A stretch of 64,000 nt of DNA, taken from assembly GCF_033126985.1 (NCBI RefSeq), contig NZ_AP024714.1, positions 1,814,990 to 1,878,989 of the forward strand. The letters run 5' to 3'. The notes beneath the pieces are model-generated. The model was not told the DNA's origin. It did not search any database and was given only the letters and a program-made list of their open reading frames with translations. Shown here piece after piece: positions 45,620 through 60,881 of the stretch; positions within the stretch are counted from its first letter, which is position 1; every line of letters starts with the position of its first letter. A program made the translations under genes and the position numbers. Source of the stretch: Methylomarinovum caldicuralii. Its GTDB lineage: Bacteria; Pseudomonadota; Gammaproteobacteria; Methylococcales; Methylothermaceae.

Positions 45620-46819
45620 GTGTTCATCAATTTTTATCGGCGCATCTGCCTGTTTGTTCTGCTTTGGCTGGCCTCCTTGGACGGCCTGGCGATTGAGACG
45701 CAGCAGCTGACCCCCGGATTCTATCCGGCGTTGCGGGTCGGCTATGCCTGGCTGGACAATGTCTTCCGCAGCGAGAAGCAGGAAAAAGCCGACACCGTGT
45801 TCCAGGCCCGTCCTATGCTACACTGGAAAGCAGGCACAGTCGTTTATGATCTCAATGCACGCTACCAGGGGAACTACGGGGTCTATCGCGTGCTGGACGA
45901 GCAGGATTACATGGACCACACCCTGTCCATCGGCTTCGGCCTTCATCCCACGGAAAAAATGGCCCTGGAGCTGAGCGATCGTTACAAAATCGGGCACGAT
46001 CAACCCGGTATATCGGGGACTCAGGTGTTCGCCCCACCAAAACCCAACCGCTGGCACGATAATCGCTTCCGTGCCCAATTTACCTACGGTCGCCGGATCG
46101 CCACAGCCCAGCTGCAACTGGCCTATGAGGAGGCCACCCGAAGATTCCAGAACAATCAGCGCGAATTCTCCGACAGAAACCAACACACCGGCACCGCCAC
46201 CTGGCTCTATCATGTGCTGCCAAAGACCTGGCTCGTAACCGAATTCCAGTACCAGATCAACGATTTCCAGATGAACAAAGCCTTCGACCAGGATTCCGAT
46301 CAATGGCACGTCTTCCAGGGGGCCAGCTGGGAAATCAGCGCCGTCACCCAGGGCGAGATCCTTCTGGGCTACCTCCGCAGTACCCCCAAGGACCAGCGGT
46401 TCTTCAAGCCTTTTTCTGGATTTGGCGCTCGCATTTCGATCAACTGGCAGCCCAGGACTTATTCCAGAGTCACCCTGAGGGCCGAACGTATGCCCCAATT
46501 GGGCAGCACTGCCAGCGCTTTTTTCCTCGCCAACAGGATCGGCCTGACCCTGCAACACGAACCAACCGAGCGCATCCGCATCCAAACCAGCGCGGCTTAC
46601 GAAAAGGATGACTACAGTTTCAACAGGTTCGGCCCGGAACGGCAGGATCGTTTCCTTAGATTCGGGCTTGAGATAAACTATGCAATGCTGCACTGGCTGA
46701 ATCTCGGTCTGGGATACAGCCATGACATCCGTAATTCGTCTTTGCGGCTTAGTGACTATGCCGCAAACACCATAAGCTTCCATGTTCAGATACTGCCAGA
46801 ATATGCCCGTAACCCTTAA
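45620..46819 (+). CDS. outer-membrane beta-barrel protein of the exopolysaccharide cluster
   Basis: A 399-residue protein beginning at a GTG with no obvious Shine-Dalgarno. It has a signal sequence ('ICLFVLLWLASLDGLA') and then amphipathic beta-strands with alternating aromatic residues to the C-terminus. 'ALRVGYAWLDNVFRSEK' resembles the barrel proteins that accompany exosortase-type EPS loci. It may form the outer-membrane pore or anchor for polysaccharide secretion. Its 3' end overlaps the export gene. The start codon is uncertain. Confidence 0.7.
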   Translation: MFINFYRRICLFVLLWLASLDGLAIETQQLTPGFYPALRVGYAWLDNVFRSEKQEKADTVFQARPMLHWKAGTVVYDLNARYQGNYGVYRVLDEQDYMDHTLSIGFGLHPTEKMALELSDRYKIGHDQPGISGTQVFAPPKPNRWHDNRFRAQFTYGRRIATAQLQLAYEEATRRFQNNQREFSDRNQHTGTATWLYHVLPKTWLVTEFQYQINDFQMNKAFDQDSDQWHVFQGASWEISAVTQGEILLGYLRSTPKDQRFFKPFSGFGARISINWQPRTYSRVTLRAERMPQLGSTASAFFLANRIGLTLQHEPTERIRIQTSAAYEKDDYSFNRFGPERQDRFLRFGLEINYAMLHWLNLGLGYSHDIRNSSLRLSDYAANTISFHVQILPEYARNP

Positions 46820-47339
46820 AGTCCTTGGTTTTCTTGTCGCCTTTTTTTTGCTCGACCCGATGCTGCTGGCAGAGGAAAACGACGAAAGTTATCAGGTCGC
46901 CCCCGGCGATGTACTGACCATCCGGGTATTTGGAGAACCGGATCTCAGCTTCGATGAAGTGCCGATCAATCCAAACGGCATACTCTCGTTTCCTCTGATC
47001 GGGGATGTCAAGGTTGCCGGGCTCACCACCAAAGCGATCGAGAAGGAGATCGAACGGCGCCTTGCAGACGGCTACCTGAATAAACCCATCGTCACCGTCT
47101 CCATCAGGCGCTTTCGCAACATTTATATCCGCGGCGAGGTCAGAAAACCGGGAGCCTACCCTTATGAGAAAGGCCTGACGGTGGAAAAAGCCATTGCCAT
47201 GGCCGGAGGCCTGACGCCCAGGGCCTCCAAAAGCACCATCACCCTGAAGCGGGAGAAAGGCCGAAAAGAGATCGATGCAGACATGCAAACCCCATTGCAC
47301 CCAGGTGACATCGTCACCATCGGCCAAAGTTTCTTTTGA
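46782..47339 (+). CDS. polysaccharide biosynthesis/export protein (short Wza-like)
   Basis: A protein of 178-185 residues (start 46803 or 46782) with a signal sequence lacking a lipobox Cys. It has a Poly_export domain ('YQVAPGDVLTIRVFGEPDL', 'GILSFPLIGDVKVAGLT') and one SLBB domain ('NIYIRGEVRKPGAYPYEKGL'). Wza proper is about 380 residues with two SLBB domains and a C-terminal helix, so this is the minimal form seen in XrtA-type EPS loci. It would build the periplasmic/outer-membrane export conduit with the barrel upstream and the Wzc-like kinase downstream. Confidence 0.88.
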   Translation: MFRYCQNMPVTLKVLGFLVAFFLLDPMLLAEENDESYQVAPGDVLTIRVFGEPDLSFDEVPINPNGILSFPLIGDVKVAGLTTKAIEKEIERRLADGYLNKPIVTVSIRRFRNIYIRGEVRKPGAYPYEKGLTVEKAIAMAGGLTPRASKSTITLKREKGRKEIDADMQTPLHPGDIVTIGQSFF

Positions 47340-47369
47340 TTCAACCACACTTTAAGCGCAGATTGCCCT

Positions 47370-49649
47370 ATGCAGCATCCGGTCCCGAAATTGACGCCAT
47401 TGCCCGCCGACACCCAGCCGAACACCGCCTTATTGCCCCATCCCATTCCAGACGACGAGGAAGAAATCAACCTCCTCGACTACTGGCTGATTCTCAAACG
47501 CCACAAATGGGGCATCCTTGCCTTCGTTCTGCTGGGACTCTTCATCGCTTTTCTGATTGCCTTCAACGCGCAACCCCTTTACAAGTCCCGTGTCCGGCTC
47601 ATCGCCGAACCGGTCATGCAGCGCGTTGCCGACCAGGTCGGTCCTTACCAGTCGGTCAACACGGCGTGGGTGTTTTACAAGACCCAATACGAACTGATCG
47701 CCAGCCGAGCCATCGCCGAAAAGGTCATTCGCAAGCTGGATCTGGTCCATAACCCGACCTTTACCGGTGCCGATCGCAAAAAACTGTTTGAGCTGCCCAA
47801 AATCGACTGGCGCGCCTGGATTCCCAAAGCCTGGTTGCCGGAAACACGGGGAAAAAAGGGAGCAAACATCCGGGAAATGGACCCTCTGGCGCCTTTCGTC
47901 GATCTGCTGCTTTCCAATCTCAAGGTGACCGGAGATGAGGAAAGCGCTGTCATCACCGTCGAATACACCGCCCCGGATCCGGTTTTGGCCGCCCAGATCG
48001 CCAATGCCATCGCCCAGGCCTACATCGAGTTCTCGATGGAATCCCGAATGGAGACCACCCAATCGGCAACTCAGTGGCTCAAGGATCAGCTCAAGGAGGT
48101 GCAGGACAAACTGAAAGCCTCCGAAGAAGCCTTGCAGCGTTTCCAGGCCCAGGAAAACCTTATCGATACGGAAAATTCCCAAAAAATCGCAGCAACCAAG
48201 CTGGCATCCCTGTCAGCTGAATTGGTTCGGGCCCAGGCGCAACGAAGCGAACTGGAAGTTCGCTACCGTCAGGTAAAGGCGATCCTCGACAGCGGCACCA
48301 GTCTGGAGTCCGTCAGTTCGGTACTCAACAACCGGGTGATCGAACAGCTCAAGGCCCAGTTAGTCCAGCGCCTGCAGGCGGTCCGCGAAATGTCGGAGCG
48401 CTACGGCCCCAAACACCCCAAAATGATCGCGGCCAATTCCGCCCTCGAGGAAGCCCGTAAAGCCCTGCGTCAGGAAATCGACAAGATTGCCGCCAATCTG
48501 CGCAAGGAACTGGAAGTGGCGCGGGCGCGGGAGCGGGAATTGAAACAATTGATCGCGGACCAGGAAAATACCATCATCCGCTATCAGGACAAAAGCTTCA
48601 AGCTAGCCCAACTGGAACGCGACGTTAAAACCCAACGGGAACTTTATGAAAACTTGTTGGAGAAAGCCCGCCAGCTGGAAGCCCAGCACAATTACAACCT
48701 TCCTAACATTACCGTCATAGAAAAGGCACACCCGGCCCTAAGGCCATTCAAGCCGAAGAAAGCCCAGATTCTCTTTATCGGCTCTGTACTGGGGGGATTC
48801 CTGGGGGTATTGATCGCATTCCTGAGGGAATATCTGGACAATACGGTCAAAACGGAAGAAGACGTCGAGAAAAAAATCGGGCTGCCACTGCTCGGCGTCA
48901 CCCCCCTGCTCGACAGCAAAGAATTGCATGGCTCGCCTCCAGAACATGTTTATCTGAATGGGCAGCCTCATAAGTTTGTCGAAGCTGTCAACTACATAAG
49001 AACCGGGGTATTGTTTTCCAATCTTGACCGCCCCCCACAGACCATCATGATTACTTCCTCCGTACCCAACGAAGGAAAAACCACGTTGGCATGCAATTTG
49101 GCCACGGCCTTCGCCAGGCTGGACACCACCTTGTTATTGGAAACCGATTTGCGCAAACCCAGGCTGGGGGAAATTATCACCAAATCCCCCAAAGGCCTGA
49201 CCGAGGTCCTTCTGGGGGAGGCCCGGTTGGAAGAGGTTCTGATTCAGGACAGGCAGGAAGGCAACCTTTATTATTTGGCTGCCGGCATGATCCCGCCACA
49301 CCCCCTCGAGGCGCTGTCGTCCCATGCCTTCCAGGAGCTGGTGGCAAAACTGAAACAACGTTTCACCCACATTGTCTTCGATACCCCACCCATCAACGCG
49401 GTCAGCGATCCGTTGGTCATCGCACGCATGAGCGATGCCATCGCCATGGTCGTCAAGGCCGACGATACACCGATCAACTCAGTGATGGCCGCCCTGAAAC
49501 GATTACAGACCGTGGAAAAGCGGCCGACCGGCATCGTTCTCAACCAGTTGGATCTGGAAAAAGCCGCCTATTACGGCTATCACGGCTACTACGGTGAGAC
49601 CTACGGAGATTACCAGTACGGCCAGGTTGCCCCTTCTAGCAGTGCCTGA
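47370..49649 (+). CDS. polysaccharide co-polymerase / BY-type tyrosine kinase (Wzc-like)
   Basis: A 759-residue inner-membrane protein. Two membrane helices (about 50-70 and 470-490) flank a Wzz/GNVR periplasmic coiled-coil domain. The cytoplasmic BY-kinase domain has Walker A 'SSVPNEGKTTLACNL', A' 'LLLETDLRKPRLG' and B 'HIVFDTPPINAV'. The tail ends in a tyrosine cluster 'YYGYHGYYGETYGDYQYG' for autophosphorylation. It controls chain length and export, and should be dephosphorylated by the PHP phosphatase encoded next. Confidence 0.94.
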   Translation: MQHPVPKLTPLPADTQPNTALLPHPIPDDEEEINLLDYWLILKRHKWGILAFVLLGLFIAFLIAFNAQPLYKSRVRLIAEPVMQRVADQVGPYQSVNTAWVFYKTQYELIASRAIAEKVIRKLDLVHNPTFTGADRKKLFELPKIDWRAWIPKAWLPETRGKKGANIREMDPLAPFVDLLLSNLKVTGDEESAVITVEYTAPDPVLAAQIANAIAQAYIEFSMESRMETTQSATQWLKDQLKEVQDKLKASEEALQRFQAQENLIDTENSQKIAATKLASLSAELVRAQAQRSELEVRYRQVKAILDSGTSLESVSSVLNNRVIEQLKAQLVQRLQAVREMSERYGPKHPKMIAANSALEEARKALRQEIDKIAANLRKELEVARARERELKQLIADQENTIIRYQDKSFKLAQLERDVKTQRELYENLLEKARQLEAQHNYNLPNITVIEKAHPALRPFKPKKAQILFIGSVLGGFLGVLIAFLREYLDNTVKTEEDVEKKIGLPLLGVTPLLDSKELHGSPPEHVYLNGQPHKFVEAVNYIRTGVLFSNLDRPPQTIMITSSVPNEGKTTLACNLATAFARLDTTLLLETDLRKPRLGEIITKSPKGLTEVLLGEARLEEVLIQDRQEGNLYYLAAGMIPPHPLEALSSHAFQELVAKLKQRFTHIVFDTPPINAVSDPLVIARMSDAIAMVVKADDTPINSVMAALKRLQTVEKRPTGIVLNQLDLEKAAYYGYHGYYGETYGDYQYGQVAPSSSA

Positions 49650-50380
49650 ACAACTGATTGACATTCATAGCCACATACTTCCCCGGTGTGGACGATGGAG
49701 CGTCCACAGCGGAAGATGCGCTGGCCATGCTTGAAATGAGCCAAAGGGAAGGAATCGGGATTCAATGGCTGACCCCCCACCTGGGACGCCCCCCCTTCGA
49801 TTTGCCATGGCCGGAGCTGCAACAGCGTTTTCAGGCTTTCCGGCAACAGGTCATCCAGCACGGGCTGGCCATCGAGGTCCATTTGGCCGCCGAAGTGCAT
49901 ATAGGCCCGCATATCCTGACGCTGGTCCAGCAAAACGCCCTGCCCTGTTGCGGCCAATGGGAAGGGGACCCCGCCTTTCTTCTGGAACTTCCCTTCGAGC
50001 GGATTCCCCATGGCACGATCAATCTGATTCACTGGCTGACCCGACAGGGTGTCCGCCCGATTCTGGCGCATCCGGAACGCCTGCGCCCTCTGCAAACCGA
50101 TCCGGGAAAACTCGAAGCCTTCGTCGATGCCGGCTGCCTGGTCCAGGTCACGGCGGCCAGCCTGACCGGAACCTTCGGTGCCCGGACTTATGAAGCAGCC
50201 AGGGTCTTTCTACAAGCAGGTCAGGTCCACTTTCTGGCCAGCGACTGTCACAATCTTCAACGGCGCCCTCCGGGGCTGCGCCACGGACTTGCCGTCGCCA
50301 CTGACCTGATCGGAGAAACCGCAGCCAAACGTTTGGTAAGCGACAACCCCGCCCGGTTGCTGTCTTCCGTGTGCGCGTGA
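49642..50380 (+). CDS. CpsB/YwqE-type PHP tyrosine-protein phosphatase, apparently frameshifted near its start
   Basis: The main frame (from a TTG at 49658, 240 residues) carries PHP-family motifs: 'PGVDDGASTAEDALAML', 'LTPHLG', 'LAHPERLRPL' and 'LASDCHNL'. The first metal-binding block, expected as DxHxH-x-LPGVDDG, is present as 'IDIHSHILP' only in a different frame that begins at the GTG 49642. The frames join if one C of the CCCC at 49681-49684 is skipped. The enzyme should dephosphorylate the Wzc-like kinase. The single extra C may be a mutation, a sequencing error or recoding. Without the first block the enzyme would lack metal ligands. Confidence 0.8.
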
Positions 50381-52036
50381 ATGTCCCGTTCGATAATGCG
50401 CCTTGGCCCTTTACGACACTGGATTCCCTTTCTGCGTCCGGTATGGCCGTACATCGCCCTGGGAGTCGGGCTGCAAGGCATTGCCCAGGGGGCACTCCTG
50501 GCCGCCCCCTGGATCGCCGGACGCATCACCGATGACTTACTGCAGCCTCAAACAGACAGCATACCCTGGCAAACCCTTACCCTGTTCCTATCGCTGCTCC
50601 TGATCCGAAACCTGCTGAGTTTCTTCGCCACCTGCCTCACCGGCACAGCCCACGAAAACCTTCTGGCCCGGTTGCAAGAAAAGATTCATGCCCATTTGCT
50701 GTCATTGCCCCTGGGCTTTTTCCATCAACATTCACGACGCGATCTCAGCGTGCTGCTCCACCATGAGGCTGCCCATGTCGCTGGTTTCCTGGCGCTCACG
50801 CTCCCCCCCCTGTTGCCTCATACGCTGCTTTTACTGGCGATCACCGGCATACTGACCGCTTTGGCCCCCCTCCCGGGACTGGCATTGGCCCTGTTGCTAC
50901 CAACAGGTTATGGAATCAGCCGGTGGTTCGGAGGAAAACTGCACCGGCTGGCCGATCAGATCCTTACCAGCTACGACGAGGCCCTCGCCTGCGCGCGCGA
51001 CAATCTTGCCCGCATTCAGGAAATCAAAGCCTTTCACCGGGAAGATTTCGAAAACGTTCGTTTCCGCGATTGCTTACAGCAGGTCTTTCAGCGCAGTCGC
51101 CGTTATGTCATCGGGCAGGCATTATTCACCCTGGCGATCCAGAGCGCCATCGCCGCCACCCTGGTGGCAGCCGTTTCCTGGAGCGCCCTGGAAACGGTCA
51201 ACGGACGGCTAAATACGGCTCAGCAATTCAGCTTTCTGATGTATGCCCTGCTGCTGTTCTACCCCCTCAATTCCCTAAGCGGCATCTATGGCAAATTGCA
51301 GCAGGCCAGCGCCGCCGCCCGCCGGCTGAATGCGATCCTGGAAACCCCAGCGGAGAGACACCAGGGTTACCGGCTCCGCCACCGGGACGCCGAGGGCGAT
51401 ATTCTCTTTAACCGGGTATCCTTCGCCTATCCCGGTCAGGCACCGATCCTGAATGACCTGACACTCCCTATCGAGGCGGGAACCACGGTTGCCCTCATCG
51501 GTCCCAACGGCAGCGGTAAAAGCACCCTGATGGCCCTGTTGCTGCGCTTCTACGATCCTGACAGCGGCATCATTACCATCAACGGCCGCAACCTGGCTGC
51601 GTGCAGCCCGGCAAGCGTCCGCCAACAAATCGCCTATGCCGGCCAGCACACCCGCCTGTTCCACGACACCCTGTTCGCCAACATCCTGTATGGCAATCCG
51701 GAAGCGGATCGCAGGCAACTGGAAGCCGCCTGTGAGGTCGCCCAACTGGATGCGTTGATCGCCTCGCTGCCCAAAGGGGGCGAGACGGAAATCGGTCCCG
51801 ATGGAGTACGATTGTCCGGAGGGCAGCGTCAGCGCGTCGCCCTGGCCCGGGCACTGATCAAGGATGCGCCGATTTTGATATTGGACGAGGCCACTTCCCA
51901 GTTCGACCCCAAAGGGGAACACCGTTTTCTCCAGGCGGCACGGGAGCACTTCGCCAAAAAAACCGTGATTCTCATCAGCCATCGCCCCCATAGCCTGGAA
52001 GTGGCCGATCGGGTGTTTCAAATGGGAAAACCATGA
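50381..52036 (+). CDS. ABC transporter, fused permease and ATPase (exporter)
   Basis: A 551-residue type IV half-transporter with about six membrane helices (residues 20-310). The NBD has Walker A 'GPNGSGKST', signature 'LSGGQRQRVALARAL', Walker B 'ILILDEATSQFD' and the H-loop 'ISHRPHS'. It lacks a C39 peptidase domain. The gene begins directly after the phosphatase stop and overlaps the B2-like gene by ATGA. It could therefore export either a glycan precursor or the modified peptide, as McjD-type exporters do in lasso clusters. Confidence 0.9.
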   Translation: MSRSIMRLGPLRHWIPFLRPVWPYIALGVGLQGIAQGALLAAPWIAGRITDDLLQPQTDSIPWQTLTLFLSLLLIRNLLSFFATCLTGTAHENLLARLQEKIHAHLLSLPLGFFHQHSRRDLSVLLHHEAAHVAGFLALTLPPLLPHTLLLLAITGILTALAPLPGLALALLLPTGYGISRWFGGKLHRLADQILTSYDEALACARDNLARIQEIKAFHREDFENVRFRDCLQQVFQRSRRYVIGQALFTLAIQSAIAATLVAAVSWSALETVNGRLNTAQQFSFLMYALLLFYPLNSLSGIYGKLQQASAAARRLNAILETPAERHQGYRLRHRDAEGDILFNRVSFAYPGQAPILNDLTLPIEAGTTVALIGPNGSGKSTLMALLLRFYDPDSGIITINGRNLAACSPASVRQQIAYAGQHTRLFHDTLFANILYGNPEADRRQLEAACEVAQLDALIASLPKGGETEIGPDGVRLSGGQRQRVALARALIKDAPILILDEATSQFDPKGEHRFLQAAREHFAKKTVILISHRPHSLEVADRVFQMGKP

Positions 52037-52431
52037 GGAGAGCGCAGAAACTGCGCTTTGTTTTGCGCCATGCCCCCTGGATTGCCGAGGCCTGGGGGCG
52101 GTTGCTGCTGGCCCGCTTCCGCCGGCGGCCGTTCCCCCCCCCGGCATCCCGGGGGCAGCCCCGCCCCCTGGATGTCCTGGTACGCTGCTTTCAGATCGCC
52201 GCCGCCCATCATCTTTACCGTCCCACCTGCCTCCCCAGGAGCATTGCGCTGCAACATTTTCTGAAACGCCATGGTCATCCGGCGGTATTGCGGATCGGGG
52301 TCCACAAGGAAGAAAAAGGTATCAGAGCCCATGCCTGGGTCGAGGTCGATGGGCGGATCGTGGACGACGATCCAATGAATGCCAAACGCTATCACCCTTT
52401 ACGGACCCGCCACGATGATAGGAGAAATTGA
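52033..52431 (+). CDS. lasso peptide biosynthesis B2-like protease (transglutaminase-fold)
   Basis: A 132-residue protein of the Transglut_core3 family. The catalytic Cys is in 'RPTCLPRSIALQHFLKRHG', the His in 'RAHAWVEVDG' and the Asp in the following 'IVDDDP'. In lasso clusters this protease removes the leader once a B1/PqqD-like protein delivers it. Here the PqqD partner is 5 kb downstream, beyond the split ligase gene. The ATG overlaps the ABC transporter stop. Confidence 0.85.
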   Translation: MRRAQKLRFVLRHAPWIAEAWGRLLLARFRRRPFPPPASRGQPRPLDVLVRCFQIAAAHHLYRPTCLPRSIALQHFLKRHGHPAVLRIGVHKEEKGIRAHAWVEVDGRIVDDDPMNAKRYHPLRTRHDDRRN

Positions 52432-52940
52432 GCAACTCAACTTCCAGGATCACTCCGCTACCGATGAATGCCAAAGACAAACTTCATGTTCTGGTGATCG
52501 CCTTGATCGTCGCTTTGACGCTCATTGGCATCACCATGCCAGGTCCAGTCAAAAGTCACCTGGACCAAAAAATCCAGTCCCGGATGCTTCACCTGGAACG
52601 TCATGTCAACGCCATGATCTTCGGCCCCAGGGAGACGAAATTTCATCCCCGGGATTTCTTCTTCGGCCGCTTCCCTCCCAGCAAATTGGGCCATACCTTC
52701 GTGTTTTTTATTTTGACATTGGCGGCCTTGTGGAAATTGCCCAGCCATGGACGCATGGCGATCTGTCTGCTCAGCATCACCCTGTTCGCCGCCTCGACCG
52801 AGATACTGCAGTTCTTCGCAATAGAACGCATGCCGGCATGGTCGGATTTCGAACGCGATCTGGCGGGGATCTTAGTAGCGGCAATGTTCATTGAACTCAG
52901 GCGGTTGAAAAACTCCAGCCGCCAACGACCGAATGCCTGA
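52428..52940 (+). CDS. VanZ-like membrane protein
   Basis: A 170-residue protein (TTG start with GGAG 5 nt upstream, overlapping the B2 stop; an ATG at 52464 is the alternative). It has several membrane helices and VanZ-type pattern 'SKLGHTFVFFILT', 'TEILQFFAIERMPAWSDFER' and 'DLAGILVAA'. It overlaps the O-antigen ligase gene by 8 nt, paralleling the VanZ-Wzy fusion at 21990. Confidence 0.8.
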   Translation: MSNSTSRITPLPMNAKDKLHVLVIALIVALTLIGITMPGPVKSHLDQKIQSRMLHLERHVNAMIFGPRETKFHPRDFFFGRFPPSKLGHTFVFFILTLAALWKLPSHGRMAICLLSITLFAASTEILQFFAIERMPAWSDFERDLAGILVAAMFIELRRLKNSSRQRPNA

Positions 52941-54194
52941 CAAGCCCGTCGCCATGACGGGTAGTCACCGCCACCCACCCGCCTGGTTGTTCTATTGCTT
53001 CCTCGGCCTGTTCGTGTGGGTCCCCCTCCCCCGTGCCAGCAACCGCCCCGAAGCCTGGGGCCTGCTGGAGATACTCACTTTTTTTCTGCTTCAGGTCTGG
53101 CTGTGGCAGCAGCTGCGACACCGCCACCCTCTGCCTGCCGCGATCCGGACCGCAAAACCCGCCTTGTGGCTTTGGGGAATATGGCTGGCCTGGGGATTGA
53201 CCCAGCTTCTTCCCCTGCCCCCCGAACTGCTTTTCCGACTGGCACCCAAGACCGCTGAATTGCAGCATCTTCCCCCGCTGGCAGCCGCCCGCTGGGCGCC
53301 CCTGTCCCTTTCTCCCCACGATACGCTCGTCCAATGGCTCAAAAGCCTGTGCTACGCCGCCTGGTTCTTGCTGACCCTCGTTCTGGTCAACTCCCGGCGC
53401 CGCTTACGCCTGCTGGCCGCCGTCATCACCGTCAGCGCCGCCCTACAGGCGGTGTATGGAACAGCGATGACGCTCACCGGGCTGGAACTCGGGTTTCTGA
53501 CCAAAAAGTTCGCCTATGTCGGCACCGCCACCGGCACTTTCGTCAACCGTAACCATTTTGCCAATTATCTGGCGATAGCCGACCTGGTGGCCGTGGCTGC
53601 GATTCTGGCCCAATTGGAGGACAAACAGCGGCCGGTCTCCTTGGGTTGGCGTAATCTGTTGAACTGGTTGATGAGCGGCAAGATGTGGCTGCGCATCGCC
53701 CTTTTGTGCATCGCCGTCGGTATTGTCACTTCGCGATCCCGCATGGGCAACACCGTTTTTTTTCTCGGACTGCACCTGGCAGGAGTCCTGGCCTTTATCC
53801 ACTGGCCCCGCCCGACCCGACCGGCCATCCTGATCCTGCTTGCCAGCATGATCCTCTTGGATGTTTTCATCATCGGCTCTCTGGTGGGTCTGGAACGGGT
53901 CGCCCAACGGATGGAACAGACCTCGCCAGCCACCGAAGGACGTGACGAGATCGCCCGCGACACCCTGCACTACTGGCAGGATTTCCTCTGGACCGGCTCC
54001 GGCCTCGGCACCTATGCCATCCTCCTGCCACACTACAAACAGGGGGATGTCAAAGGATTTTACGACCATGCCCACAACGACTATCTGGAACTGGCCGCCG
54101 AGGCCGGCTTGACCGGCATGGTGATTCTTGGATCACTGGTCATCCTTTCCCTGCGGCAAAGCTGGATCGCCTTCCGGCGCAGCCGCCATCCCTG
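52933..54194 (+). pseudogene. O-antigen ligase/polymerase (Wzy-like), 5' part, split by IS66-family element
   Basis: The first 420 or so residues of a polytopic O-antigen ligase family protein: multiple membrane helices, 'TATGTFVNRNHFANYLAI', 'TSRSRMGNTVFF', and the loop signature 'GSGLGTYAILLPHYKQ' with 'YDHAHNDYLELAAEAGLTG'. At 54194 an insertion sequence interrupts the frame; the residual ORF reads about 77 foreign codons into the element before stopping. Joining it to 55723 restores one frame ('RRSRHPWKRALALASLT') of about 690 residues. Unless the element excises precisely, the polymerase is inactive. Confidence 0.88.
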
Positions 54195-55714
54195 TTACCG
54201 TTCACGGGCTTGCCACTGGAAGTGGTTGAGGTTCCGGCAGGGGCAGGCGGAAGGTGACCTCGCCCTCTGCCATGCCCTGGGCGCAGATGGTCCGCAGGGT
54301 CTGATAGACGCCGATCTTGAGGCGCTTGCAGGTTTCGACCAGCGACAGGATCATGGGTCGGAAGCAGTCACCGCGATGCGACTGGCTGAAGAAACTGGTC
54401 TTGCGCCAGATGACATAGGGGCGTAGGGCACGCTCTGCCGTGTTGTTGGTCATCGGTACCCCGGGATGGTCCAGGAAGGTCCAGAACCTGGGAAAATCGT
54501 CCAACAACTTGCGGCAGCTGCGACCGGTTTTGTTGTCGCCATGTCTTTGGGCGGCCTGTTCCAGTTCGCGCCGGAAGAGGGCTTTGAGGCGTTCCAATCG
54601 CCTTCGGTAGCGGTCGGATGGGTAATGGCTCTGTTGCCAGAGCTTGCCGTAGTGAACCGTCAGGCGGGCGGCCCGGAGCAGGCGTTCGCCATCTTCGCCG
54701 GCCTGTCCCTTGCGCCCGGCGATCCGTTCCAGGTTGCGGATGAGATGCGCCCAGCAGTATTGGTGTGAGTCCTGGGGATGGTCGTTGTAGGCCCCGTGGC
54801 GGTCGGTCACCAGGATCCCCTGGAAATCCCCCAACAGCTCACCGGCCGCACCCTTGCCGCGGGAATAATGGGTCAGGAAATACGCCATCTGATCGGTCGT
54901 CAGCGCCCACAGCCAATAGATGCTGCGGCCCCGGTAGTGGCGGGTCTCGTCGGCATGGGCGATCAGCGCTTTTCTGACCGCCTCGCCAATCTGGTTGTAG
55001 ACCGGACCCAGCCACGCCTGCAGCGGGATCTGGCTCTGGCTGATCGCCCCCAGGCTGAATTTCAGACCCCATTGTTCTTCCAGCAGCGCTTCGACTTCCC
55101 GCAGCGACAGGTGATAGCGCCCCGTCATCAAGCCAATCCACGCCACCAGCCCAGGTCCCATCTGGCCGCGGGGAACCTCATCCGGTAGCCGCCCCTGGTG
55201 CTTCTCACCACAACACCCACAGCGGCCTTCATACACCCGGTGTTCGACCACCCGGTAACGAATCTCGGGCAGGTCGAACACCTGATGGGGACGGAATCCC
55301 CGCACCGCCACCGACCCACCGCACTCGCAGCGGCCATGGGGAAAGTAATGCCGGACCTCGTCCACTGCTTCTGCCGGAACCAGAGCCCGCTCGTGCCTGG
55401 GATGTCCCACCTGCGCCCCTTTCTTGCGTCCCGTCGGTCGCTTGCCCTTGCGCTCGGCGCGCTTCTTCGTGCTGTCCTGGGAAGGTGGTTGGGAGGAATT
55501 GTCGGACCCCAAGGCCAACTGTTCCTCCAGTTCTTCCACTCGCGCCTGGATCTGCTGAAATTCTCCCAGCGCCCGCCAAAGCGCTTCGATCACCCGGTGG
55601 CATTCCTCCACCGTCCCGGGCAAGGGAGGTGGGCGGCTCAGGTCCAGATCAAGTCTTTCCATGGCCCGCATTCTCCTGAATCTTCAGGCACTTGGCAAGA
55701 CCGTGAACGGGTAC
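54195..55714 (-). mobile_element. IS66-family insertion sequence (single-gene type) inside the O-antigen ligase gene
   Basis: The 1520-bp element has imperfect inverted ends (left TTACCGTTCACGGGCTTGCC, right inverse TACCCGTTCACGGTCTTGCC). It is bounded by a perfect 8-bp direct repeat CATCCCTG (54187-54194 and 55715-55722), the duplication length typical of IS66. Only the transposase gene is present, without the TnpA/TnpB accessory genes, as in the ISBst12-like subgroup. Confidence 0.93.
54202..55671 (-). CDS. IS66 family transposase (TnpC)
   Basis: A 489-residue transposase. An N-terminal coiled coil ('QARVEELEEQLALGSDNSSQ') and a Lys-rich segment precede the IS66 zinc-binding domain ('GRCECGG', 'GRCGCCGEKHQG'). 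The DDE core has 'IAHADETRHYRG', 'ILVTDRHGAYN', 'YCWAHLIRNLERIAGR' and 'MTNNTAERALRPYVI'. It is intact and probably recent, given the perfect target duplication. Confidence 0.95.
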   Translation of the reverse strand: MRAMERLDLDLSRPPPLPGTVEECHRVIEALWRALGEFQQIQARVEELEEQLALGSDNSSQPPSQDSTKKRAERKGKRPTGRKKGAQVGHPRHERALVPAEAVDEVRHYFPHGRCECGGSVAVRGFRPHQVFDLPEIRYRVVEHRVYEGRCGCCGEKHQGRLPDEVPRGQMGPGLVAWIGLMTGRYHLSLREVEALLEEQWGLKFSLGAISQSQIPLQAWLGPVYNQIGEAVRKALIAHADETRHYRGRSIYWLWALTTDQMAYFLTHYSRGKGAAGELLGDFQGILVTDRHGAYNDHPQDSHQYCWAHLIRNLERIAGRKGQAGEDGERLLRAARLTVHYGKLWQQSHYPSDRYRRRLERLKALFRRELEQAAQRHGDNKTGRSCRKLLDDFPRFWTFLDHPGVPMTNNTAERALRPYVIWRKTSFFSQSHRGDCFRPMILSLVETCKRLKIGVYQTLRTICAQGMAEGEVTFRLPLPEPQPLPVASP

Positions 55715-55722
55715 CATCCCTG

Positions 55723-56533
55723 GAAACGGGCCCTGGCGCTGGCCTCGCTTACCGCGATCCTGATGATGCTGCTGCATGCCACCGTGGATTTCAGCCTGCA
55801 GATACCCGCCAATACGGTCCTGTTCACCCTCATGCTGGCACTGGCCTGGGTCTGCGCCACCCCCGCTTCGGCCAAACCGTCAGCCGACCTGCCCCGCCTG
55901 TCATGGGCGGTCCTCCTCCCCACCCTGATCGTTCTGCAGGTGCTGGCCTTCCGCCTGTCGGCCTCCGATTACATCAGCAACGAATCCTTTGCCAAGGTAC
56001 AAAGCTGGCAGGCCACCTCCCCCCCTCCCTGGAACGAATGGCGGCAAACATACCACCTGCAACAAAAAGCCGTTTCCCTTGCCCCGGACAACGCCTGGGC
56101 ACTGGTCAACCTGGCCCGCCTCAACCATTGGCGGCACGCTTTCACCAACGGGCGGCAGCCGGAAATCGACCGCGTGTCCCTGCAGCAGCTGCTCCGTGCA
56201 GCGGCGGCACAGCCTGCCGACGCCAGGATCTGGCTGGCCATCGCCACCGCCCACCTGCACCAGGGACAGGTGGGTTCCCTGTTTCGACAAGCCGTTCACC
56301 ATGCCTTCCGGCTGGCCCCCTGGGAAACCAAGCTGCAATGGTCCCTGCTCCGCCTCCTAACCGCGGCGTATCCTTATCTGAAACCCAAGGAACGTACTTT
56401 GCTGTGCACGGTTCTGAACCACAACCTGCGCCTGCAACCGGACCGTACCCGGCGCTACCTGCTCGATAGTAAAATTCCAGCTGGACGCTGCTCAGAAACA
56501 ACTGCCGGGACTGTAGAACCCAATGCCCCTTGA
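55723..56533 (+). pseudogene. O-antigen ligase/polymerase (Wzy-like), 3' part after the IS66 insertion
   Basis: About 270 codons continuing the disrupted gene in the same frame. Two membrane helices ('TAILMMLLHATVDFSLQI', 'WAVLLPTLIVLQVLAF') are followed by a soluble TPR-like tail ('AVSLAPDNAWALVNLARLNH', 'WLAIATAHLHQGQVGSLFRQ'). A stray in-frame start inside the element at 55661 could express this piece alone, but without the ligase core. The stop codon lies in the first copy of the tandem 25-bp repeat. Confidence 0.85.
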
Positions 56534-56604
56534 ATGTCAGTTTTTTTTACACCCTTGAATGTCAGTTTTTTTTACACCCTTGAATGTCAGTTTTTTTTAC
56601 ACGC
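56530..56604. repeat. three tandem 25-bp units, each with a 17-bp regulatory-like motif
   Basis: Each unit contains TGTCAGTTTTTTTTACA (56535-56551, 56560-56576, 56585-56601), with only the last two bases of the third unit differing. A related single site (TGTCAGGATTTTTTACA) precedes the PEP-CTERM gene on the other strand. The position, 60-130 bp upstream of a -24/-12 promoter, suits an enhancer-binding protein such as the PrsR regulators of PEP-CTERM systems. Confidence 0.8.
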
Positions 56605-56663
56605 AAAAGCCCGGTACCAGACCATTCCGATATGATTTGAAAAAAATCATTGACATAGAAATC

Positions 56664-56679
56664 CGGCATTTAATTTGCT
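56664..56679 (+). promoter_or_regulatory. sigma-54 promoter of the metalloprotease-PqqD-HprK operon
   Basis: CGGCATTTAATTTGCT matches the RpoN consensus TGGCACG-N4-TTGCW with invariant GG and GC separated by exactly 10 nt. It lies about 45 nt before the start codon and 62 bp after the last tandem motif. Confidence 0.75.
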
Positions 56680-56726
56680 TGGAAGATTTATCCAACTGAT
56701 CCAATTTGTTGAGTTTGGAGGCAATG

Positions 56727-57512
56727 ATGAAATCCGTACGACAAACTATGATGTTTCTGGGCTTGACGCTGACCCAACCGGCTGTCGCCTTCGACATCGC
56801 TTTCGATTACACTTACGGTGGTTCCTTTTTCGATGCCTCCATCCAGAACATTCTCGACAGCGCCGCCGCCGTTTACGAAAGCCAAATCACCGATACCCTG
56901 GCAGATACCTCGGGTTTCAGCATCTCCATTAACAATCCTTCCGACCCAAACCAACAGGTGCAAGTCAGCGCATCACCCGGGGACACAGTCACCATCTATC
57001 TCGGCGCCCGGGACCTGGGGTCCGGCATTCTGGGCCAGGGCGGTCCCAGTTGGTTCGAAGGCAACAATCCTCCAAGAACCGCCTCCAGCAATGAATTCGA
57101 ACCCGCGCTTGGGGTCATCACCTTCAACAACGCCTTCAACAACTGGTATATCGACAACGATCCCAGTACCACTGAATCGTTCAGCGGCTACGATTTTTAC
57201 TCGGTCGCCCTGCACGAGATCGGCCACGTCATGGGCATCGGCACCGCGCCTTCCTGGAATGCCCAGATCCAGAACGGCCGGTTCACCGGAACCCAAGCCG
57301 TCAATGTCTATGGCGGCAACGTGCCCCTCACCAGCGACGGCGGCCACTGGGCCGAGGGCACCCAAAGCACGGCCAACGGCCAGACTCAGGAAGCGGCCAT
57401 GGACCCCACCATCGCCAACGGCCAGCGCAAACAGCTAACCGACCTGGACTGGGCTGCCCTGGACGATATCGGCTGGAACGTAAAAGACATTTCAGTGAGT
57501 CCGAACTCATGA
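56727..57512 (+). CDS. secreted matrixin-like zinc metalloprotease
   Basis: A 261-residue protein with a signal sequence ('TMMFLGLTLTQPAVAF'). The zinc motif 'ALHEIGHVMGIGTAPSW' (HExxHxxGxxxxx, near residue 172) and a Met-turn-like 'EAAMDPTI' are those of metzincins related to M10. There is no PEP-CTERM tail. GGAGG ends 5 nt before the second of two adjacent ATGs (56727), so that start is preferred. It overlaps the PqqD gene by ATGA and is driven by the sigma-54 promoter. It might process surface proteins or the exported peptide. Confidence 0.82.
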   Translation: MKSVRQTMMFLGLTLTQPAVAFDIAFDYTYGGSFFDASIQNILDSAAAVYESQITDTLADTSGFSISINNPSDPNQQVQVSASPGDTVTIYLGARDLGSGILGQGGPSWFEGNNPPRTASSNEFEPALGVITFNNAFNNWYIDNDPSTTESFSGYDFYSVALHEIGHVMGIGTAPSWNAQIQNGRFTGTQAVNVYGGNVPLTSDGGHWAEGTQSTANGQTQEAAMDPTIANGQRKQLTDLDWAALDDIGWNVKDISVSPNS

Positions 57513-57787
57513 ACCGGCAACAGCGTTACCATATCCCCGACTACGTGCTGTTTCAGCAGCTGGAAAACGAGACCGTCCTCCTCAACCTGGAGGACGGTTA
57601 TTATTACGGCCTCGATGATCTGGGAACCCGGATCTGGCAGATGTTGAAGCAAGGCGACAGCCTGGGCGAATGTCTGGAATGGATTCTAGAAAACTATGAG
57701 GTTTCGCCGGAACAGGCCGAAAAGGATCTTGAGGCGCTGATCCGGCACATGACTGAAAAGGGGCTGATCGAACCCGCCGGTTCATGA
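57509..57787 (+). CDS. PqqD-family peptide chaperone (RiPP recognition element)
   Basis: A 92-residue winged-helix protein: 'YHIPDYVLFQQLENETVLLN', 'LEDGYYYGLDDLGTRIWQML' and a C-terminal helix pair ending 'HMTEKGLIEP' are diagnostic of PqqD/B1-like leader-peptide binders. It is sandwiched, with 4-nt overlaps, between the metalloprotease and the HprK-like kinase. It most resembles the PqqD-like proteins paired with HprK-related kinase A (the so-called HPr-rel-A systems). Confidence 0.9.
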   Translation: MNRQQRYHIPDYVLFQQLENETVLLNLEDGYYYGLDDLGTRIWQMLKQGDSLGECLEWILENYEVSPEQAEKDLEALIRHMTEKGLIEPAGS

Positions 57788-58641
57788 CAATCCACCATCA
57801 TTCGCTTTACAGCCTGAACCTGGCCAGCGACTTCGATCTCGGACTACCCCCTGCCCGGGGAAAAACGGATCTGCGGATCTGTCGCGGCGCAGGCCATGGC
57901 GTGATCCTCCGGCTGGCGACCGGACAGGCCTGGCTTGATCCGGAGGCCGGAATGATCCATTTCCAACCCGATCCGCAACTGGATGCGGAGGACGTCCGGC
58001 AGATCATCCTCAACGTCCTGCTGCTGGAAATGCTGCCCCGGCTCGGCTACGTCTGTCTCCACGGCAGCGCCGCCACCTACGGCGGTTACACCCTCGCGGT
58101 GCTCGCCCCCCAGGGCACCGGCAAGTCCACCTACGTCGCCGCCCTGGCATCCCGGGGCTGGCAGCTGCTCAGCGACGATCTACTGATCATCAAGGCGGAA
58201 AGGCTGACCCTCCAGCCCGGCATCCCCCAAATCCGCCTGTGGCAGGACAGCATCGAAACCCTTGGCTGGCACCGCCGCCCCCGTCATCCCGACCGTTACC
58301 GGCCCGGTAAATTCGCCCTGCCGCTGCAGACCGACCCGCACCCCCGCCGTCCCGGCGCCATGATCGTGCTGGAGCGGGGAAACGGGGAAATCAGACGGCT
58401 CTCACCTGCGGAAGCCTTTTTCAGCCTGCTCAACAACAGCTTCCCCCTGCAGATTCCAAGTCGCCAGGCCGAAGCCCTGCGCTTTCAGACGCTCAGCCGC
58501 CTGAGCTGTGATCTTCCGGTTTACCGCCAGTCCCTGACACCCCGCATCCAGGAAAACATCCGCCGCGCGCTGGATGCCATCGCCCCGGCAAGCATGGCGA
58601 CAATCCAAAAAGAAATCCCGCGGCAAGCACGGGATTCCTGA
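57784..58641 (+). CDS. HprK-related kinase (HPr-rel-A type)
   Basis: A 285-residue P-loop protein resembling the C-terminal half of HPr kinase/phosphorylase: 'YVCLHGSAATYGGYTLAVLA', Walker A 'APQGTGKSTYVAAL' near residue 109, and 'WQLLSDDLLII' (acidic catalytic/Mg site). It lacks the HPr-binding DRTase-like N-terminal domain. In lasso and HPr-rel-A loci such kinases sit beside PqqD proteins, where they may phosphorylate a peptide; the true substrate is unknown. Translation is coupled to the PqqD gene. Confidence 0.85.
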   Translation: MTIHHHSLYSLNLASDFDLGLPPARGKTDLRICRGAGHGVILRLATGQAWLDPEAGMIHFQPDPQLDAEDVRQIILNVLLLEMLPRLGYVCLHGSAATYGGYTLAVLAPQGTGKSTYVAALASRGWQLLSDDLLIIKAERLTLQPGIPQIRLWQDSIETLGWHRRPRHPDRYRPGKFALPLQTDPHPRRPGAMIVLERGNGEIRRLSPAEAFFSLLNNSFPLQIPSRQAEALRFQTLSRLSCDLPVYRQSLTPRIQENIRRALDAIAPASMATIQKEIPRQARDS

Positions 58642-58657: not shown

Positions 58658-58825
58658 CTAGGGGGAAGGCGGCTGGAAGCCCCCCCCCCCGCCGGGGCCG
58701 ATTCCACCCGGCCCCGGCGGGCCGCCGGCGGGAATGGAGGTGCGCCCCAGGGTCAGATGGGAGACCCCCCCATACTCGGTCAACCTGGGGGGTTGGTAGG
58801 CCTGCTTCTTTTCTTGCTGATTCAT
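58658..58825 (-). CDS. RiPP precursor with lasso-type leader and Gly/Pro-rich core
   Basis: A 55-residue peptide starting at the ATG 58825, with GAGG 10 nt upstream. Residues 10-27 ('YQPPRLTEYGGVSHLTLG') fit the lasso leader pattern Y-x-x-P-x-L-x-x-Y-G-x-x-x-x-L-T. The remainder, from Arg28, consists of Gly, Pro, Ser, Thr, Ile, Ala, Phe and Gln ('TSIPAGGPPGPGGIG', then 'PGGGGGFQPPSP') with no Asp, Glu, Cys or Lys. A lasso macrolactam is therefore impossible. An 11-base G run falls in the core coding sequence. It converges on the HprK-like gene with a 16-bp gap and lies downstream of the PEP-CTERM gene on the same strand. Confidence 0.75.
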   Translation of the reverse strand: MNQQEKKQAYQPPRLTEYGGVSHLTLGRTSIPAGGPPGPGGIGPGGGGGFQPPSP

Positions 58826-58844: not shown

Positions 58845-59540
58845 TCATCCACATTTTGAGTATGGCATATTTATCCGCTGCCGCACCATCAGGCCGAGCA
58901 ATCCGATGCCCATCAGCAAGAGACTGCCCGGCTCCGGCACGGTGAACTTCCAGCCGTGGATGAAAACGCCGTTGACGTAGGAATCCACCTGCCAGTCACC
59001 CCGCTCGTCCAGAACCAGAGGGTCGGTGAAGAACTGCCATCCGGGTCCCAAAGCACTGGAAAGGGTGCTCCACGGCACCTCGACATCGTTCCGCTGCTTG
59101 TCGGTGGCAGGATCGGCCATGGTGGAAGGGGCGTTCCACACCACGGTCCAAACCAATTTATCAACTAGAGATGATCCCCAATTGCTCAAAGCGGCATTGA
59201 GGGCAGCTTGGGACAGATGGGTGAAATCGAACAGCTCACCCGCCCGTACCGTATCACCAAAGGAAAACATATCCAAAGCCGCCGGACCACCGCTTTTCTG
59301 CGGTACCGGTGTTCCGGAACCGGTATCGAGATAGGTCACGACCCCTGCCGGAACTGCGTTTTCCGAGATGGTGATGACATCGGTCCCGTCCGGCACCCCG
59401 GCCACTCCACTGGCCCCTGTTGCCGTATCTCCATCGATGTCGCAGTAGGGATAACTCCCCGCGCAGTTCAAAGGCGTCGCCCCCGCAACGCCCCCGGCCA
59501 GCAGCAAGGCCAGCCCCAAACAAAAACGTATCAATTTCAT
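58845..59540 (-). CDS. PEP-CTERM sorting domain protein
   Basis: A 231-residue exported protein with a signal peptide ('FCLGLALLLAGGVAGA') and a C-terminal exosortase signal 'VPEPGSLLLMGIGLLGLMVR', followed by basic residues and a short extra tail ('QRINMPYSKCG'). The mature part is Asp/Gly/Thr-rich with no known enzymatic motif. The ATG 59540 has GGGAG 8-10 nt upstream. It should be cleaved by an exosortase, none of which is in the window, and displayed or released with exopolysaccharide. Expression probably depends on sigma-54. Confidence 0.9.
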   Translation of the reverse strand: MKLIRFCLGLALLLAGGVAGATPLNCAGSYPYCDIDGDTATGASGVAGVPDGTDVITISENAVPAGVVTYLDTGSGTPVPQKSGGPAALDMFSFGDTVRAGELFDFTHLSQAALNAALSNWGSSLVDKLVWTVVWNAPSTMADPATDKQRNDVEVPWSTLSSALGPGWQFFTDPLVLDERGDWQVDSYVNGVFIHGWKFTVPEPGSLLLMGIGLLGLMVRQRINMPYSKCG

Positions 59541-59577
59541 CGCTGAGTCTCCCACAGAATCGATCCGATTATAGTCA

Positions 59578-59593
59578 AGCAAAAATCATTCCT
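59578..59593 (-). promoter_or_regulatory. sigma-54 promoter of the PEP-CTERM gene
   Basis: The minus strand reads AGGAATGATTTTTGCT, with GG and GC 10 nt apart and TTGCT matching the -12 element, about 38 nt before the ATG. The -24 half is less conserved than that at 56664. Confidence 0.6.
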
Positions 59594-59668
59594 TTTTTTA
59601 TTTTCTTATTTACATCCAATATGTTACAGAACAACCGCTGACCTTGAAAAACAAGTCGGCAGGCAATT

Positions 59669-59685
59669 TGTAAAAAATCCTGACA
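59669..59685 (-). promoter_or_regulatory. putative enhancer site matching the 56535-56601 motif
   Basis: The minus strand reads TGTCAGGATTTTTTACA, identical at 15 of 17 positions to the tandem motif before the metalloprotease operon, and 75 bp upstream of the -24/-12 promoter. Confidence 0.65.
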
Positions 59686-59687
59686 AC

Positions 59688-60881
59688 CTACAACCGCTCC
59701 AGCCTGGAATCATAATCCGGGTCGCCCCAGGCCTTCAACCCCGCAGGCAACTTGCACAACAGACAACCCACCCGGGCCGGGAGGTTTTGCCAGCCCGGGG
59801 CATAACAAACGTTGCGCCAGGTCCAGGGCAGCAGGTTCAGGCGGTAGTAAACCGTCAGCGCCGTGCGCCATACCGCTTCCCGCCAACCGGGCGTTTCCGC
59901 CGGCACCGAAAACCGCAGCCCCATCAGCAGCCGCCGCGCGTTCCAGCGCGCCCACCGCCCGGCCTGATTCAGCAATGGCGTCTTCGTCCCGAACAATTCG
60001 CCGGCAAGCACCGCATACGCCAGCAGCGGCGTGCGAAAATCCTGGCGCTCGCACAAGGACAGCAGCGCCCGCCAGTCGATCCGCTCCCGGTAACGCGCCG
60101 CCAGCCAGGCAAATTCCGCCACCTGCATCAGATTGACCCGGGCGGACAGATACTCCTTTTTGAGGGCGTGGAGCACGTTGTGCAGCACCCTTTCGGCAGG
60201 GGCCGGAATGGCCGTTCGCCGCCCCTCCCAGACGACCTCCTCCCGATGCCGCCAGGCCCGCTCCGCCGGAAGAATACGATCCCCTTGGCCGTAACAAACC
60301 CGATAATGAATCTCGATCATCACCTGATGGCGGGCATCATAAAACGGCGGCAGGTGATGGTGGCGGCGGTCAAACATGTTCCCCGCTAACACCGCCTCCG
60401 GCGGGCATTCCTCGCGGAAAGCGTTCTCCAGCAACACCTTCCGGGCCCGATCCTTTTGGGACTCCGGCACCAGAATGTCGAGATCCCCCATAGGCCTGGC
60501 GCCGGGATCGCCATACAGACCGTCGCAGAAGGTCGCCGCCCCCTTGAGCAACAGGGTCTCAATGCCGGCTTGCTCGAACAAGTCCAATATTCCAAGCAGG
60601 CAGTGACGGTGGCGCAGATAGCGCACCGTGTCACGACGGTAGGCCGCCTTCAGCGCAACCACCACCCCGGCGGGCAATTGCGCCAGAAGCCCATGGCGTT
60701 TAAGATTGACATACAACAAGGAAGCACAGCCGTGGGCCTGTGCGTAGGCAAGCCTCAGGGGCAATAACTCAGCGGAATCAGGATTGACGCATCCAGACAG
60801 ATCGGGGGCCAGCAACCTGGACAACAGCCTCACCGCACCACCGCCGGCTATCTCTGGCAACAAATCAGCCACCAACGCCAA
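59688..60881 (-). CDS. nucleotidyltransferase family protein (NTP_transf_5 type)
   Basis: A protein of about 397 residues (TTG start at 60881; GTG at 60872 is equally possible) with the minimal nucleotidyltransferase core: 'IETLLLKGAATFCDGLYGD', 'ARPMGDLDILV' (DxD metal site) and 'VMIEIHYRV'. Helical C-terminal domains follow. Genes of this family recur beside lasso-B2, PqqD and HprK-like genes, but their substrate is unknown. It overlaps the end of the small membrane protein gene. Confidence 0.83.
   Translation of the reverse strand: MALVADLLPEIAGGGAVRLLSRLLAPDLSGCVNPDSAELLPLRLAYAQAHGCASLLYVNLKRHGLLAQLPAGVVVALKAAYRRDTVRYLRHRHCLLGILDLFEQAGIETLLLKGAATFCDGLYGDPGARPMGDLDILVPESQKDRARKVLLENAFREECPPEAVLAGNMFDRRHHHLPPFYDARHQVMIEIHYRVCYGQGDRILPAERAWRHREEVVWEGRRTAIPAPAERVLHNVLHALKKEYLSARVNLMQVAEFAWLAARYRERIDWRALLSLCERQDFRTPLLAYAVLAGELFGTKTPLLNQAGRWARWNARRLLMGLRFSVPAETPGWREAVWRTALTVYYRLNLLPWTWRNVCYAPGWQNLPARVGCLLCKLPAGLKAWGDPDYDSRLERL

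Follow-up and report, generated by a model that had tools for sequence, protein, structure and literature searches.

A co-directional run of exopolysaccharide (EPS) genes spans 45620 to 56533 of the window, by which we mean the whole 64,000-nucleotide stretch of DNA analysed here, positions 1814990-1878989 of a 2.69-Mb single-contig genome. The run encodes an outer-membrane barrel, Poly_export, Wzz, CpsB, an ABC transporter, B2, a VanZ-like protein and an O-antigen-ligase-like protein. Within it the ABC transporter gene (50381..52036, + strand), whose product is a possible exporter, overlaps by 4 nt the gene for a lasso-type B2 (Transglut_core3) leader protease (52033..52431, +; NF033537 76.5 bits, cut-off 33; PF13471). 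An IS66 transposase gene (54202-55671, −; PF03050 142 bits) splits the O-antigen-ligase-like gene into pieces at 52933-54426 and 55661-56533; in the sister genome, G005, this frame is unbroken and a different, integrase-core transposase gene lies nearby (L072:6136-7203).

One base past the final stop codon of the run begins the first of three tandem, exact copies of the 17-mer TGTCAGTTTTTTTTACA, the PEP-CTERM box (motif 1 of Haft et al.), which we will refer to simply as the box. The copies lie at 56535..56551, 56560..56576 and 56585..56601 (all +) with a period of 25 bp, and 61 bp separate the end of the third from a sigma-54 −24/−12 promoter, CCGGCATTTAATTTGCT (56663..56679, +), which scores 13.0 on our own simple consensus (maximum 15) and ties into the top ten among the 1393 GG-N10-GC sites of the window. 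Further along, on the opposite strand, the box TGTCAGGATTTTTTACA (59669..59685, −) matches the 17-mer at 15/17 positions, with two mismatches, and its end lies 74 bp from the −24/−12 promoter AAGGAATGATTTTTGCT (59578..59594, −; score 12.0) of a PEP-CTERM gene. Both placements had been described in an earlier note on this DNA and are confirmed here.

Behind the three boxes lies an operon of three genes, with ATGA overlaps at both junctions. The first (56706..57512, +; the true start may be ATG 56724 or 56727) encodes an exported metalloprotease-like protein with a HEIGH motif by eye, which is Matrixin-like below cut-off, scores 63.5 bits against NF038122 (below the cut-off of 80) and gave no PEP-CTERM match in a profile search. 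The second (57509..57787, +; PF05402 67.6 bits) encodes a PqqD-family protein, that is, a RiPP leader-binding, B1-like protein, with lasso_PqqD_Bac as its best NCBIfam match (56 bits, cut-off 80). The third (57784..58641, +) encodes an HprK-related kinase with the residues H-K-D-D of the lasso-kinase type, which were read by pattern in the window and sister kinases and by eye in that of a third genome, G030. The operon could also be transcribed by read-through from the upstream EPS genes.

Facing this operon on the opposite strand is a second unit, in which the gene for the PEP-CTERM protein (58845..59582, −; PF07589 32.2 bits, cut-off 20.7) is followed by that for a RiPP precursor with a lasso-type leader (58658..58825, −; NF033521 25.7 bits, cut-off 19). 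The precursor ORF was called from GTG 58852, but its likely start is ATG 58825, 19 nt past the PEP-CTERM gene stop. As the precursor follows the PEP-CTERM gene and its box, both halves of the RiPP system stand behind boxes. Upstream of that box, a nucleotidyltransferase-like protein of the NTP_transf_5 family (59688..60881, −; PF14907 158 bits) is likely to be a RiPP tailoring enzyme.

The precursor and its conservation in related genomes

The precursor core, GRTSIPAGGPPGPGGIGPGGGGGFQPPSP (GRTSIPAGG...), contains neither Asp nor Glu and ends in QPPSP, with Ser penultimate; in the sister precursor the only core Asp is at about position 15. The ring acceptor of a lasso peptide is a core Asp or Glu at position 7-9. 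Because the window core lacks an acidic residue, we did not accept a lasso peptide as the window product, which is probably of another kind. Among the scanned genes we saw no lasso cyclase; an asparagine-synthetase homologue lying roughly 7 kb from the precursor has a score of 175, below the lasso-cyclase cut-off of 525. The earlier description of the boxed operon as a RiPP operon therefore applies only in part: the PqqD and HprK genes are there, but the precursor is elsewhere, behind the PEP-CTERM gene, its core has no ring acceptor, and the first gene of the operon encodes the exported metalloprotease-like protein.

Both box units are present in the sister genome, where the kinase is 82-83% identical to that of the window and the precursor homologue 83.6% identical. 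A single box precedes the sister metalloprotease gene in place of three, with a spacing likewise of 61 bp, and in alignment the box columns agree at 17/17, the sigma-54 17-mer at 13/17 and the rest of the intergenic region at 60/99 (61%), which marks the single box as what has been conserved; either the triplication or, in the sister, its loss took place after the split. The box before the sister PEP-CTERM gene is TGTCAGAATTTTTTACA, at a spacing of 72. Between window and sister, dN/dS is 0.21 for the precursor, 0.08 for PqqD, 0.29 for the kinase, 0.28 for B2, 0.31 for the nucleotidyltransferase, 0.40 for the metalloprotease and 0.28 for the PEP-CTERM protein; the first five of these are under purifying selection.

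The third genome, G030, carries in one row a box (one mismatch to the dyad defined below, spacer 62), a sigma-54 site, the gene for a PEP-CTERM protein (PF07589 22.7 bits, cut-off 20.7), a lasso-leader precursor of 49 aa (NF033521 27 bits, cut-off 19) and an HprK gene. After its lasso-type leader this precursor (L074:1523-1672) has Gly1 and Asp/Glu at about 8-9, and the product there is possibly a real lasso peptide. PrsR was not found in this 460-contig assembly (E <= 1e-140), in which RpoN is split into two pieces.

The box and sigma-54 site across genomes

At up to three mismatches the 17-mer has four matches in the window, compared with a mean of 0.01 in window shuffles, and 12 in the whole genome (4 exact), compared with three for the reversed pattern. 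Written as the dyad TGTMAR-N5-YTKACA it has 13 exact sites genome-wide, seven of which build five units of box plus sigma-54 site (score >=11.5, spacer 51-74). These units precede the metalloprotease-PqqD-HprK operon (three sites), three genes whose products have a C-terminus of PEP type (two above the Pfam cut-off, one at 17.6 vs 20.7) and one 218-aa membrane protein. The unit of the last, at G000:C1:1432161 (L035:4162), combines a box with a very good sigma-54 site, ATGGCGTGATTTTTGCT, at a spacer of 52; the single-TM protein behind it gave no NCBIfam match, and a similar sequence in the sister (G005:C1:2010594-2010679) also matches the strict pattern used below.

Six dyads were not counted as units, two of them within coding sequence. 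The dyad at 349282 is flanked by GG-N10-GC sites, one of score 11.0 at a distance of 66 bp and, on the opposite side, one of score 12 at 31 bp. That at 1954250, at the start of the ORF of a PEP-CTERM gene, has a poor one (score 10) at 81 bp. A perfect-looking box at G000:C1:2490646-2490662 lies inside a ThiF-like coding sequence (ThiF by eye), where it encodes LSEFFT; genome G141 has a similar sequence, which probably reflects conservation of the protein and not regulation. With six of 13 dyads outside units and two in coding sequence, we rejected the 17-mer or dyad alone as a regulon marker. By itself the 17-mer is thus not specific, whereas a box combined with a correctly spaced sigma-54 site is. 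Such a unit stands before only two of the six PEP-CTERM genes that score above the Pfam cut-off here, which weighs against control by PrsR and sigma-54.

The order is most likely Methylococcales, to which the genus Methylicorpusculum belongs: in the genome of the Methylicorpusculum locus L269, PrsR has contig coordinates identical to those in G145 of the order set. For the order as a whole (311 genomes) we used a strict pattern, box-N46..76-GG-N8-TTGC, which matches 82 of the 311 genomes (138 matches), whereas the reversed control matches none. An off-by-one control, in which GG and TTGC stand one base further apart, matches 12 genomes, and in five of these the stretch is one matched by the correct pattern as well. 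The spacers of the 138 matches group at intervals of roughly one turn of the helix (resultant length R 0.76 for a 10.5-bp period; 99.9% null 0.29). Motif and promoter-like sites could in principle be chance or neutral repeats, as slippage can create 25-bp tandem units, the sister has only one copy and TGTCAGAATTTTTTACA also occurs within coding sequence; given the excess over controls, the helical phasing and the conservation in the sister, we regard this as very improbable.

The regulators expected for such an element are encoded in the window genome. PrsR scores 659.7 bits (cut-off 502.6) and is adjoined by PrsK (780), PrsT (716) and the XrtA-system glycosyltransferase (564), and RpoN scores 501.5 bits. 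Another activator of the NtrC type might nonetheless use the box in place of PrsR: about ten sigma-54 activator homologues are encoded in this genome, the dyad resembles generic TGT-ACA activator sites, and 12 strict-match genomes, including G030, have no PrsR above cut-off (E <= 1e-140), although some of these assemblies are incomplete. However, PrsR is above cut-off in 70 of the 82 strict-match genomes and in only 57 of the 229 without a match, and in the portion of Haft et al. available the phylogenetic profile of the box, from which PrsR was derived, ties PrsR, PrsK and PrsT to the element (PMC1569441). We thus consider a different activator improbable and PrsR the better candidate.

HPr-rel-A operons behind the same element

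Operons of the HPr-rel-A system (TIGR04352 kinase, TIGR04353 PqqD), for which our literature search found no paper, share the order of the window operon: an exported first gene, then PqqD, then HprK. Their first gene is mostly of Tat type, with an RR motif in 39 of 43, a loose count in which three loci had no ORF and the ORFs chosen at L238, L249, L267, L273 and L307 seem to be in the wrong frame. One first gene (L203:953-1636) gives a weak match to the GrrA/OscA1 cyclophane RiPP family (17.6 bits, cut-off 31). Behind the P-loop, 179 of 180 HPr-rel-A loci (all the readable ones) have D-E as their acidic pair, and the His pattern was matched in 166 of the 180. The window proteins score far under both cut-offs (kinase 46.8 bits, cut-off 200; PqqD 21.4, cut-off 35), and with H-K-D-D in place of H-K-D-E we rejected the window kinase as an HPr-rel-A member. 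The low score and the different acidic pair point to two different HprK/PqqD systems behind the same switch.

Among the 311 order genomes the HPr-rel-A kinase is above cut-off in 101, of which 94 have PrsR, compared with 33 of the 210 without the kinase. Box and sigma-54 site together occur at nine of 100 placed loci, with boxes that precede the kinase match by 1066-1325 bp. At the 94 loci with PrsR the reverse-strand control found 0, GG-N9-GC found 1 and GG-N11-GC found 0, and at the six PrsR-negative loci the box and every control gave 0. PrsR is present in all nine genomes with the element, and eight of the nine sites match the consensus exactly, the other (G025) having one mismatch. By genome family, tallied by hand and excluding L102 (G014, f7), whose match start could not be placed, the element occurs at 3/5 loci in f1, 3/11 in f4, 2/2 in f6 and 1/1 in f7. 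Family f8, in contrast, has the element at 0/81 loci though most of its genomes have PrsR, and a universal box rule for HPr-rel-A was rejected on this ground; a looser scan of the ten element-negative loci outside f8 found none. Less than 1 kb of upstream DNA was available at four of the 100 order loci (G038, G105, G240, G301) and at three of the 80 loci described next.

Outside this set we took the best 80 of at least 189 relatives in named genomes, whose genera include Massilia, Herbaspirillum, Accumulibacter, Sulfuricella, Nitrotoga and Malonomonas. The Methylococcales consensus finds the element at 25 of these best 80 (controls 0, 1, 4 and 5). A consensus widened to TGTCRR, picked after the 25/80 result had been seen, finds it at 28 of the best 80 exactly (controls 0-4) and at 43 with up to one mismatch (controls 1-5). 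The element thus accompanies a minority of Methylococcales HPr-rel-A operons and a third or more of the named loci (best 80 of at least 189). As related genera recur, the named loci are not independent, and seven with Methylococcales names, some of them order-set genomes again, have the element at 0/7. PrsR is above cut-off in 44 of the 50 named genomes searched (drawn from the best 80 of at least 189 loci), and the element is present at 34 of their 50 loci, with PrsR missing or cut at one of the 34 (L278). Two PrsR genes are above cut-off in the Massilia-group genomes of L238, L240, L246, L250, L262 and L267.

Ten named genomes chosen for having the element contain 63 pattern sites (control 0). 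At least 11 of 29 readable sites precede ORFs with a PEP-CTERM-like end, defined by a regular expression, with four of the 29 giving no ORF, which indicates that the HprK box there is of the same kind as the PEP-CTERM box. The spacings differ, in that 22 of 28 exact sites at HPr-rel-A promoters outside Methylococcales (best 80 of at least 189) lie 83-99 bp from the GG, whereas nine of the 11 PEP-CTERM-like sites in the ten genomes (L313-L342) have shorter spacers of 61-75.

These operons bear on the question of which gene the box serves. It might serve the metalloprotease gene alone, as a former gene for a secreted protein of PEP-CTERM type, with pqqD and hprK mere passengers by operon position. 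The relation of the exported protein to NF038122, the PEP-CTERM-like ORFs behind at least 11 of the 29 sites and the position of the precursor outside the operon all speak for this. Against it, HPr-rel-A operons place PqqD and HprK behind the same box after a quite different (Tat-type) exported protein; the window precursor sits behind the other box, box, PEP-CTERM gene, precursor and kinase stand in a row in G030, and the ATGA overlaps couple all three genes of the window operon. We therefore think it unlikely that the box is meant for the metalloprotease alone, somewhat less so than that another activator uses it, and favor control of the tailoring genes as well.

A proposed surface programme and known systems

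From these observations we propose, with a probability of roughly three in four, that the two box clusters and their sigma-54 promoters would jointly switch on the metalloprotease-PqqD-HprK and PEP-CTERM-precursor units under PrsR, and that the precursor product would be tailored and exported. Activation of both units by PrsK-PrsR through RpoN appears well supported, and the central suggestion of the earlier note, that a PqqD/HprK operon belongs to a regulon of PrsR/sigma-54 type, is upheld by the box, its spacing, its conservation in the sister, the presence of PrsR, PrsK, PrsT and RpoN, and the recurrence of the arrangement elsewhere. It is from sequence patterns of this kind that we infer PrsR binding, transcription and PrsR control of the operon, and from known relatives that we infer each enzymatic step.

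In this model the sensor kinase PrsK would phosphorylate PrsR, which would bind TGTCAG-N5-TTTACA on a helix face that allows contact with RpoN-polymerase 60-75 bp downstream, so that the two convergent units would come on together. By analogy with known systems, PqqD would then bind the lasso-type leader and present the precursor, the kinase would phosphorylate Ser/Thr in the core, the NTP_transf_5 protein may decorate the phosphate, B2 would cut off the leader, and the neighboring ABC transporter would export the product alongside exopolysaccharide and the PEP-CTERM protein.

Bacteria that form biofilms or flocs commonly have PEP-CTERM/exosortase systems, and to our knowledge little is known of other targets of the PEP-CTERM two-component system. 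The box before tailoring genes, recurring in many bacteria, suggests that the peptide and the PEP-CTERM proteins probably form part of one surface programme. A more tentative extension, which we hold to be possible but on balance doubtful, is that across Proteobacteria PrsK/PrsR would run a surface programme of exported proteins or peptides and PqqD/HprK tailoring that places phosphorylated (or phospho-glycosylated) peptides into or onto the exopolysaccharide matrix. If conserved, the regulon link would place the HPr-rel-A system in a context of regulation and physiology, and it predicts that the product is made together with exopolysaccharide and PEP-CTERM proteins.

The earlier note took sigma-54 and PrsK/PrsR control of PEP-CTERM genes as known. 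The element described by Haft et al. (2006) begins with a 17-nt motif, sometimes repeated, whose last letters are TTTACA; after 62.8 +/- 10.6 bp (range 32-92) comes a second 17-nt motif with −24(GG)/−12(GC), and the pair precedes 99 of 167 PEP-CTERM genes from proteobacteria (PMC1569441). The window agrees with the described element in that its box ends in TTTACA, is repeated, precedes a −24/−12 site and the PEP-CTERM gene at 58845-59582, and has spacers of 61 and 74, within 32-92 (a few-bp shift at the motif 2 edges is possible), with PrsR, PrsK and PrsT encoded; it differs in that, both in this genome and in many relatives, HprK/PqqD tailoring operons stand behind the box as well. In Aquincola tertiaricarbonis the PEP-CTERM gene pepA has a mapped, rpoN-dependent −24/−12 start and an upstream enhancer sequence, but this is a single PEP-CTERM gene, and in the available text PqqD is unmentioned and there are no RiPP genes (PMC9850573). 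In Desulfovibrio vulgaris five predicted PEP-CTERM targets of the response regulator DVUA0057 were DAP-chip-enriched; the binding motif was not validated there and, in the part seen, HprK/PqqD targets are unnamed (PMC3333781). In the text available of PMC3023750, PqqD appears a single time, within a table, and PEP-CTERM is confined to a reference. Our literature search, with most subscription papers outside it and some sources seen in part, found no paper linking the PEP-CTERM box to HprK/PqqD genes. The box itself is thus already known; its placement before peptide-tailoring operons did not appear in the literature searched.

The gene set of paeninodin and pseudomycoidin clusters comprises PqqD (B1), B2, a kinase, a nucleotidyltransferase and an ABC transporter. 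According to the sections available of a review, lasso-tailoring kinases of the PadeK/ThcoK type have a catalytic His-Lys-Asp-Asp, paeninodin-type substrates have a C-terminal Ser, and the clusters encode the kinase PadeK/PsmK and the nucleotidyltransferase PsmN (PMC9266682). The window resembles these clusters in its lasso-type leader, B2, H-K-D-D kinase, nucleotidyltransferase-like gene and ABC transporter, and it has a B1-like protein that is PqqD by Pfam but falls below the lasso_PqqD_Bac cut-off. It departs from them in that the genes scanned revealed no cyclase, the core is without Asp or Glu, the Ser is penultimate, and the genes are divided between two putatively box-driven units in an EPS locus.
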